Shown here piece by piece: positions 3,519-61,592 of a DNA stretch of 64,000 nt. The DNA comes from Hymenobacter sp. 15J16-1T3B (lineage in GTDB: Bacteria; Bacteroidota; Bacteroidia; Cytophagales; Hymenobacteraceae): NCBI RefSeq assembly GCF_020711235.1, contig NZ_JAJFAV010000006.1, positions 248,001-312,000 of the forward strand. The letters are read 5' to 3'. Position 1 is the stretch's first letter. Each line of letters starts with the position of its first letter. The notes beneath the pieces were generated by a model. It saw nothing but the letters and a program-made list of their open reading frames with translations, searched no databases and had not been told where the DNA came from. A program made the position numbers and the translations under genes.

Positions 3519-3551
3519 GGGCGAGGACGCAAGCTGGCGGTGAACCCCGCT

Positions 3552-3992
3552 GTCATTGCGAGGAGGCACGACGAAGCAATCCTTCCCCTCGTGGCACGAC
3601 GGTACGAGAAGCACTAACCGAAATAATTATGCACCTCTATTACGTTTATATCCTCACGAATCAGAATCACACCGTGCTCTACACCGGCGTCACTAACGAC
3701 CTAACCCGCCGGGTAGCCGAGCATCGAACAGGCCAGCACAAAAGCTTTACTAAACGCTACAACGTCAATAAGCTCGTCCACTTCGAGAAATACCCAGATG
3801 CAAAAGCAGCCATTGCGCGGGAAAAGCAACTGAAGGCTGGTTCACGGCAGAAGAAGCTGGACGCGGTGAATGCAGTGAATCCCGATTGGTCGGAGTTGCT
3901 GCTGGTATAGCTTGGGGAGTTTTCGGTTAGTGGTTGTTGTGTCGTTGTGCCTTGGGAGGAAGGATTGCTTCGTCGTGCCTCCTCGCAATGAC
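3552..3992. repeat. 441-bp inverted-repeat element enclosing a GIY-YIG gene (subfamily C)
   Basis: The left arm is 3552-3623 and the right arm 3921-3992, both 72 nt. The outer 35 nt (from GTCATTGCGAGGAGG to CAATCCTTCC) are a perfect inverted match. The inner 37 nt match at 27 positions, including the inner ends CACTAACCGAAA / TTTCGGTTAGTG. Total identity is 62/72 without gaps. The arms sit 5 bp before the start codon and 10 bp after the stop of the only gene inside. No target-site duplication is evident. A gene-less relative with shared arm blocks lies at 36978-37158. Confidence 0.9.
3629..3910 (+). CDS. Single-domain GIY-YIG endonuclease (YhbQ/UPF0213-like)
   Basis: A 93-residue protein made only of a GIY-YIG nuclease domain. 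YVYILT (5-10) is the GIY equivalent and LYTGVT (17-22) the YIG equivalent. It also has the conserved arginine in DLTRRVAEH (24-32), the glutamate in AIAREKQLK, and a C-terminal asparagine (NPDW). The enzyme class cleaves DNA using one metal ion. Family members are common stand-alone proteins in Bacteroidota with no settled function. The gene is tightly flanked by 72-nt inverted repeats, so it may act on those sequences; this is inference. Codon use is more AT-rich than in neighbouring genes (AAT, ACT, AAA are frequent). Confidence 0.88.
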   Translation: MHLYYVYILTNQNHTVLYTGVTNDLTRRVAEHRTGQHKSFTKRYNVNKLVHFEKYPDAKAAIAREKQLKAGSRQKKLDAVNAVNPDWSELLLV

Positions 3993-4030
3993 TGCTTTCT
4001 GAACCGTCCGGCTGCCACCCGAACCGGCGC

Positions 4031-36977: not shown

Positions 36978-37158
36978 GTCATGGCGAGCGAAGCGCAGCA
37001 ATCGTTCTTCTCGTGGCACCACGACCCACTAGCAGAAACCTAAAACGGCCCCGCCTGACACTGGAGTTACCGGTTTCGCGTGGGGCCGTTTTAGGTTGGT
37101 GGGTATGTCAGCGTTTCTGCTGCTAGCGGAACGATTGCCGCGCTTCGCTCGCCATGAC
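36978..37158. repeat. Gene-less inverted-repeat element, subfamily C (relative of the GIY-YIG element)
   Basis: A 181-bp element. Left GTCATGGCGAGCGAAGCGC-AGCAATCGTTC, right reverse complement nearly the same (one change). Inner arms CCTAAAACGGCCCC (37039-37052) and GGGGCCGTTTTAGG (37082-37095) are a perfect 14-bp stem. Left arm blocks GTCAT-GCGAG, AGCAATC-TTC and CTCGTGGCAC-ACGA are also present in the left arm of the GIY-YIG element at 3552-3992. Confidence 0.75.
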
Positions 37159-54526: not shown

Positions 54527-54629
54527 GTCCTGTCGAGCGCAGTCGAGACGTCTCGCGGGCTGATGTGGGATAGTGACGCAACGATTGATATTACTATCCA
54601 GCGAGATGTCTCGACAAGCTCGACATGAC
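54527..54629. repeat. Intergenic inverted-repeat element, subfamily B (short form)
   Basis: A 103-bp element: left GTCCTGTCGAGCGCAGTCGAGACGTCTCGCG, right GCGAGATGTCTCGACAAGCTCGACATGAC; arms mirror each other with a few changes. Same family as 27336-27511 and 35936-36045. Confidence 0.75.
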
Positions 54630-61408: not shown

Positions 61409-61592
61409 GTCATCCTGAGCAGAGCGAAGGACCTTTCTCGAACCCCTGCACCGCCGCTGCCTACAACGTGCCGGCGCTAATCGGGACAACGACAACAAGC
61501 GCAGCCACCACACCCGAACGATTGGCGTTGGTGGCTGCGCTTCTTGGTCGGTGCAGGGTTGGAGGAAGGTCCTTCGCTGCGCTCAGGATGAC
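61409..61592. repeat. Intergenic inverted-repeat element, subfamily A
   Basis: A 184-bp element. Left GTCATCCTGAGCAGAGCGAAGGACC, right GGTCCTTCGCTGCGCTCAGGATGAC, nearly perfect. Nested arms CCCTGCACCG / CGGTGCAGGG and a perfect AAGCGCAGCCACCA / TGGTGGCTGCGCTT core. The core and ends recur at 20136-20311 and, degenerated, at 15051-15233. Confidence 0.85.

Follow-up and report, generated by a model that had tools for sequence, protein, structure and literature searches.

The intergenic interval between an intact radC gene and an intact DUF1684 gene in Hymenobacter sp. 15J16-1T3B (6.33 Mb genome, 42 contigs) raises the question of why a small nuclease gene should lie between two inverted copies of a repeat, and whether gene and repeat belong together. 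The window, that is, the entire 64,000-nt stretch of DNA that was analysed, contains this cassette along with several related palindromes (Table 1). The sequence-only reading had described a GIY-YIG gene between 72-nt inverted arms, and the structure proved to be exactly that: the best arm core is 72 nt long and 86% identical, ends 5 nt before the gene and resumes 10 nt after it, and the outer 30-mer is the same on the left and right (0 expected in shuffled windows); the widest inverted arms, 3549-3623 and 3921-3995, span 75 nt at 85% complementarity. The arm begins with GTCAT, read in the window as TGTCAT, in which an unpaired TGTC tag is followed by a stem starting with AT (5 bp, ATTGC/GCAAT, with a long loop). 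The putative cognate arm is GTCATTGC..., and arms such as GTCATGTC... would be non-cognate.

Table 1. Positions of the nuclease cassette and of gene-less or lone GTCAT-type repeats in the window.
Feature	Position	Strand	Remarks
Left arm	3552..3623	+	72 nt; outer 30-mer 3552-3581 is a type-A GTCAT repeat
GIY-YIG nuclease gene	3629..3910	+	93 aa; residue 71 is Gly
Right arm, inverted copy	3921..3992	-	72 nt; outer 30-mer 3963-3992
Gene-less GTCAT pair, GTCATCTTGAG / GTCATCCTGAG types	20136..20311		
Gene-less GTCAT pair, GTCATGCCGAG / GTCATGTCGAG types	27336..27511		
Gene-less GTCAT pair, GTCATGTCGAG / GTCATTCCGAG types	35936..36045		
Gene-less GTCATGGCGAG pair, long hairpin between	36978..37158		
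Lone GTCATGTCGAG repeat	54598..54629	-	
Gene-less GTCATCCTGAG pair	61409..61592		

The gene product consists of a single domain that matches the GIY-YIG family (Pfam PF01541, E 7.6e-17, 61.8 bits), and the residues Y7, Y18, R28, E65 and N84, which we take to be the catalytic residues of GIY-YIG enzymes, are invariant among 14 proteins of the genus. The nearest named relative is from Hymenobacter gummosus (82% identity), and the closest solved relatives by sequence are the UPF0213 GIY-YIG proteins PDB 1zg2 (E 9.1e-9) and 1ywl (E 1.8e-6); we know of no link between UPF0213 proteins and repeats. A homing endonuclease was rejected because there is no interrupted gene, intron or intein and the cassette is intergenic, and a defence or phage gene was rejected because PADLOC and PHROGs gave no match at E 0.001. 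The open reading frames of the cassette include no transposase.

The gene-less GTCAT...ATGAC pairs elsewhere in the window had been assigned to the same family as the cassette, an assignment that stands for the general GTCAT pattern but not for the arm types, which differ from those of the focal cassette. Across the whole genome, the arm search proposed at the outset recovered the focal 30-mer at 19 sites with no more than 3 mismatches (two of them the cassette's own arms), and a looser type-A pattern, GTCATTGCGAG..GCAATC, at 64 sites; the reversed control for the former and the control for the latter each gave 0. At the gene-less loci L005, L008/L009 and L016, an inverted partner with no more than 9 mismatches starts 162-192 nt away, and more degenerate partners were recognised by eye at L012, L017, L019 and L020. 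Aligned by eye, the gene-less dimer and the cassette correspond over the stretch that starts at GTCAT and ends at ACCGAAA; the gene takes the place of a G+C-rich hairpin core. Besides the pairs in the window, many more mirrored dimers occur among the repeats listed, in a count that is not exhaustive. A type-A pair can also enclose something else: at L206 (G069:C7:189500-192500, locus 1191-1753), two arms 527 nt apart, with terminator-like hairpins on both sides, surround a small membrane-like ORF and no GIY-YIG gene.

The same genome encodes a second small GIY-YIG protein (L002, identical to L036) between inverted 89-nt arms that are identical to each other and have a different sequence, GTCATGTCGAG...; the architecture is conserved while the repeat sequence has changed. 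The arms of this cassette (also L216, G000:C33 ~93000-94000) run past GTCAT into sequence resembling the type-A spacer, as if nested. Across 8 genomes of the genus, 23 nuclease matches were found, 15 or 16 of which have clear GTCAT arms by eye; no arm pair was seen at L029, L033, L034, L038, L041 and the fragment L045, and L042 is unscored.

For a broader survey, relatives were selected by protein alone (at least 533 confirmed, the best 80 named loci kept, many phyla). A flanking inverted pair scoring at least 12 is present at 43 of these 80 loci, compared with 16 of 1200 size-matched control intervals from the same loci, and a pair scoring at least 20 at 17/80 compared with 1/1200. The arms therefore do not surround unrelated genes at the same rate, controls being rarely armed; 37 of the 80 best named loci have no clear pair, none of them reaching a score of 12. 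Of a pooled set of 167 non-identical nuclease genes (genus, named-relative, plasmid-collection and phage-collection loci), 163 have flanks long enough to compare, and the 5-mer most often present in inverted orientation on the two sides is GTCAT (100/163 genes; runner-up CGAAG, 70). The tags on the two sides agree in at least 11 of 16 letters at 105 of 165 genes and in 238 of 820 mismatched-locus pairings, so that tag agreement alone exceeds this control, itself high, only about twofold.

Type-specificity of the pairing was examined in a strict set of 74 genes with GTCAT and the same following triplet on both arms, 31 of 105 having been left out because the two arms differed, the tag was not GTCAT, the protein was short or the gene was a duplicate. 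On the protein tree, the triplet changes 17 times (mean of shuffles 45.4; 0 of 200 shuffles as low). Paralogues within one genome bear different arms, and where a genome holds genes with unlike triplets, the closest homologue from another genome shares the triplet in 34 of 36 cases (0.18 by chance). The reverse complement of AT plus the triplet lies within 37 nt in 115 of 154 arms, as against 3.0 expected with other triplets, although this test of an exact mirror is mostly failed by the CCT (5/22) and GCA (1/14) types. Such covariation of enzyme type and repeat type across many bacteria suggests that the enzyme acts on these repeats.

A candidate determinant of specificity is residue 71. At strict loci, Gly71 accompanies TGC (25) or CGC (1), and Trp71 accompanies CCT, GCT, GTC, TCC, GCA, GCC, CCC or TTC (47 in total), the exceptions being Arg71 in one gene piece at a TGC locus and Leu71 in a TCT gene. 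Among 85 out-of-sample genes, a TGC arm accompanies 11 of the 13 Gly71 genes that bear a tag and none of the 57 such Trp71 genes (p 3.6e-11); a further 3 Gly71 and 5 Trp71 genes are untagged, and 7 have another residue. When the second base after GTCAT is classed, the counts are 96 for Trp with pyrimidine, 38 for Gly with purine, 3 for Trp with purine and 1 for Gly with pyrimidine (setting aside 10 untagged genes, 6 ambiguous ones and 6 in which residue 71 is neither Gly nor Trp); L290, with Gly71 and GTT and GCA tags, violates the rule. Since the tree holds only 1 to 4 independent contrasts, descent alone may explain the link, and a repeatedly evolved change at residue 71 is not established. 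At one and the same genomic site, the arms are of the CCT type in L169 (G134) and of the GCT type in L180 (G093) and L202 (G137), and the nucleases have diverged, a possible natural switch of specificity.

The pairing also extends to whole genomes. A profile of the TGC-type protein (A2), the type to which the window's nuclease belongs, was run over 150 genomes of the family, with a cut of 130 bits chosen after a gap in scores from 131.6 to 116.1 bits was seen; 16 of the 18 listed loci above the cut were read (L278 and L280 left out), and all have Gly71. Within the same two genera (74 genomes), type-A repeats occur in 18/18 genomes with the TGC-type gene (median 34.5 copies) and in 33/56 without it (median 2), G005, whose decayed copy falls under the cut, being scored among the latter (Mann-Whitney p 7e-6, Fisher p 0.0008, kinship ignored). 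Type-B repeats, used as a control, are not clearly commoner in genomes with this gene (p 0.07). Six of the 16 genomes without any A1 match still carry type-A repeats. With 1 to 4 independent pairs, neither this genome-level test nor the residue-71 link is freed from common descent.

The comparison of strains proposed in the sequence-only reading showed cassettes at three sites that are missing in some congeners; the refuting case of an armless gene fixed at one syntenic place did not materialise. The radC-DUF1684 interval measures 524 bp in the window's genome (G000) and 576 bp in G003, both with the cassette, and without it 60 bp in G002 and 119-151 bp in G001, G004, G005 and G007 (G006 not assessable). 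Between the anti-sigma and vWA genes, G000 has a cassette, and the armless interval is 196 bp in G002 and 86 bp in G003, the five other congeners having no vWA neighbour in the stretch covered. At the DoxX site, the cassette is present in G003 (518 bp) and, by coordinates, in G006, and absent from G000 (112 bp) and G002 (211 bp); G004 and G001 have gene-less GTCAT pairs of other types there, and G005 and G007 are unplaced. Gain and loss at such variable sites appear indistinguishable from sequence, and no clear target-site duplication was seen by eye between filled and empty sites, which have diverged. In G005, the TGC cassette is flipped between its arms, with both flanks co-linear with G004 and G007; homologous recombination between the arms could explain this inversion without the nuclease. 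The site of the gene-less dimer L008 can be aligned over its full length in both G002 and G003, so that this dimer, rejected as a recent insertion, is uninformative on recent movement. Among 148 cross-genome pairs of cassettes with the same triplet, 38 share flanking genes and 110 share no flank; many cassettes have been inherited in place at one site across species, which counts against high mobility.

In other bacteria, tblastn matched 34 plasmid-collection and 11 phage-collection records. Eight plasmid-collection loci (some picked because their host is named in the survey of CGTC repeats discussed below) and one phage locus were examined. Homologues lie between CGTC-tagged palindromes in six proteobacterial records, from Neisseria gonorrhoeae, Azospirillum lipoferum, Sinorhizobium meliloti, Novosphingobium aromaticivorans, a Rhizobium and a Shinella (inverted-repeat scores 26-70), and the N. 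gonorrhoeae homologue (43.7% identity, on a chromosome-sized record) is flanked by CGTCATTCCCGCGCAGGCGGGAATCC repeats. The Planktothrix and Spirosoma loci have GTCAT repeats with weak pairing (score 12 each), and the one locus examined among the 11 phage records has no arms (score 8), the phage relatives of the nuclease being distant (37-40%). On the A. lipoferum plasmid AZO_p3, the nuclease gene and its repeats (L208) are located between sufB and sufC, within the suf gene cluster. The N. gonorrhoeae arm alone folds strongly (z -4.19), and five Bacteroidota arms do not; the arm of the window folds no better than shuffles, and a stable single-arm hairpin there was accordingly rejected on folding energy. 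A complete gene-less dimer forms one long hairpin (z -16). What the enzyme recognises as its unit may be this dimer or else a duplex site.

In the available part of their survey, Di Nocera et al. (2013; PMC3733652) list Neisseria (dRS3), A. lipoferum, S. meliloti and N. aromaticivorans among the hosts of CGTC-tagged REPs, together with the Rickettsia RPE-4/6 repeats, and report that transposase genes are not found in association with CGTC repeats, giving no enzyme partner; no mention of GIY-YIG was counted in that text. The arms described here resemble these elements in the (C/T)GTC tag, the stem starting with AT, the mirrored dimers, the intergenic location and the presence of the nuclease between repeats in the listed hosts, but differ in the stem, which in CGTC REPs has 8-9 bp with a loop of 4-5 nt (PMC3733652).

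The cassette is best read, with a probability of roughly 0.68, as the gene of a site-specific GIY-YIG endonuclease lying within a dimer of mirrored copies of the very repeat that the nuclease targets. This repeat is an interrupted palindrome with a GTCAT tag and resembles CGTC-type REPs. The pairing of nuclease and repeat is well supported, and sequence comparison shows it together with its type-specificity, the presence or absence of cassettes at given sites and one inversion between arms, whereas we infer binding, cutting, a preference for single-stranded DNA and repair-driven spread. In the proposed mechanism, the nuclease would recognise GTC-AT-NNN...N'N'N'-AT, probably on a single-stranded or extruded repeat during replication, repair or DNA uptake, and would cut at the tag or close to it. 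Repair that uses the mirrored arm or a further copy as template would then copy, delete or flip segments between arms, keep the arms alike and couple enzyme type to repeat type. The gene-less dimers elsewhere would be the same kind of repeat minus the gene.

A small GIY-YIG protein has reportedly been tied to a genomic repeat before: a 2025 study in Nat Commun reportedly defined Ssn, a family of site-specific single-stranded nucleases with thousands of homologues that was first found in Neisseria meningitidis and whose repeat is said to be named NTS. The present nuclease is likewise a small single-domain protein tied to a many-copy repeat (64 type-A copies here), whereas the Bacteroidota repeats differ in sequence and form weaker single-arm hairpins, and the gene here is enclosed by a dimer of the repeat it is paired with, several such types existing in parallel in one genome. 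If the Ssn work already has cognate repeats flanking the genes, the pairing is known, and what would still be new are the nuclease described here, the arm families of the Bacteroidota, the sites found empty or inverted and the link to residue 71.

An Ssn-like enzyme might also recognise the repeat without mobilising it, cutting it in single-stranded DNA and thereby modulating uptake or recombination, with the repeats serving as marks or barriers that spread as a by-product or for another reason. The reported Ssn biochemistry in Neisseria, the N. gonorrhoeae homologue between its repeats and the many cassettes inherited in place fit such an account. It is less likely than the main reading, and against it stands that orthologous sites differ between genomes in the cassettes and gene-less pairs they hold. 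It is improbable that the nuclease gene is a passenger of repeats that serve as terminators or DNA structures and are spread by something else. Because gene and repeats would be inherited together, arms and protein would agree by common descent; the long hairpins of complete dimers, the type-A arms without the gene, the type-A pair around another ORF and the flanks shared in 38 of 148 pairs all suit this idea, against which stand same-type cassettes at different sites (the 110 pairs with no shared flank), the recurrence of the association in distant phyla whose repeats differ, and the enrichment of type-A, but not clearly type-B, arms in genomes with the TGC-type gene.

The likeness to RAYT/REPIN systems lies in an enzyme gene flanked by a palindrome whose gene-less dimers fill the genome; the systems differ in the enzyme (GIY-YIG here, an HUH (Y1) tyrosine transposase there), in the tag (GTCAT and GTAG) and in the several enzyme-repeat types found side by side here, to judge from the portions of the RAYT papers available (PMC3116915; PMC8049555). 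RAYTs are described there as inherited at few copies, with repeats more numerous where the enzyme is present (PMC8049555). The sequence-only reading had proposed a REP/RAYT-like element with a different enzyme, an idea that largely holds up: the gene flanked by a dimer-forming repeat and the GIY-YIG enzyme are borne out, and movement by the nuclease stays a hypothesis. Its further proposal that the nuclease recognises or mobilises the palindromes is partly supported by the general and specific association, the covariation of types and the presence or absence of cassettes, but not as regards mobilisation: type-A arms persist in gene-less genomes, many cassettes keep one site across species, one arm pair encloses an unrelated ORF and a clear target-site duplication was not seen. 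That a RAYT-type (Y1) transposase moves the repeats in trans, with the GIY-YIG gene as cargo, is highly improbable: six of eight congeners do have Y1_Tnp genes (13 in total), but none was found in the window's genome or in G006, both rich in arms, and GTCAT occurs within 200 nt on either side of 0 of the 13, so that RAYT is disfavoured as the partner of the repeats. Publications linking GIY-YIG genes with REPs were not found in a literature search of partial coverage, which is weak evidence of absence.

With the nuclease-in-own-repeat reading, a tentative extension is that the dedicated enzymes that the CGTC-REP superfamily has so far lacked are, throughout bacteria, small GIY-YIG nucleases. 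Each would be encoded between mirrored copies of the repeat it acts on, as a REPIN-like system with an unrelated enzyme, and specificity would be set partly by residue 71 (Gly where the second base following GTCAT is a purine, Trp where it is a pyrimidine). Such REPs (dRS3, RPE and others) are widespread in bacteria, and the 2013 survey could name no enzyme for them (PMC3733652). If a nuclease is encoded within the repeat that it targets, and several specificities coexist in one genome, the upkeep and spread of repeats become directly testable; these genes would also provide a natural series of nucleases that are candidates for sequence-specific action, and residue 71 would be a candidate for setting their specificity.

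Two further observations concern the architecture of other elements. Several Y1 transposase genes of the genus (L234, L235, L237, L239 and L242) are associated with long inverted repeats that are their own and lack GTCAT (scores 38-75), in a TIRYT-like arrangement. The arms at G105:C49:17337, G144:C23:28559 and G117:C11:1625677 contain a second short GCATTCTGCGCATCAAGCAG-like palindrome in the loop, possibly a repeat within a repeat.
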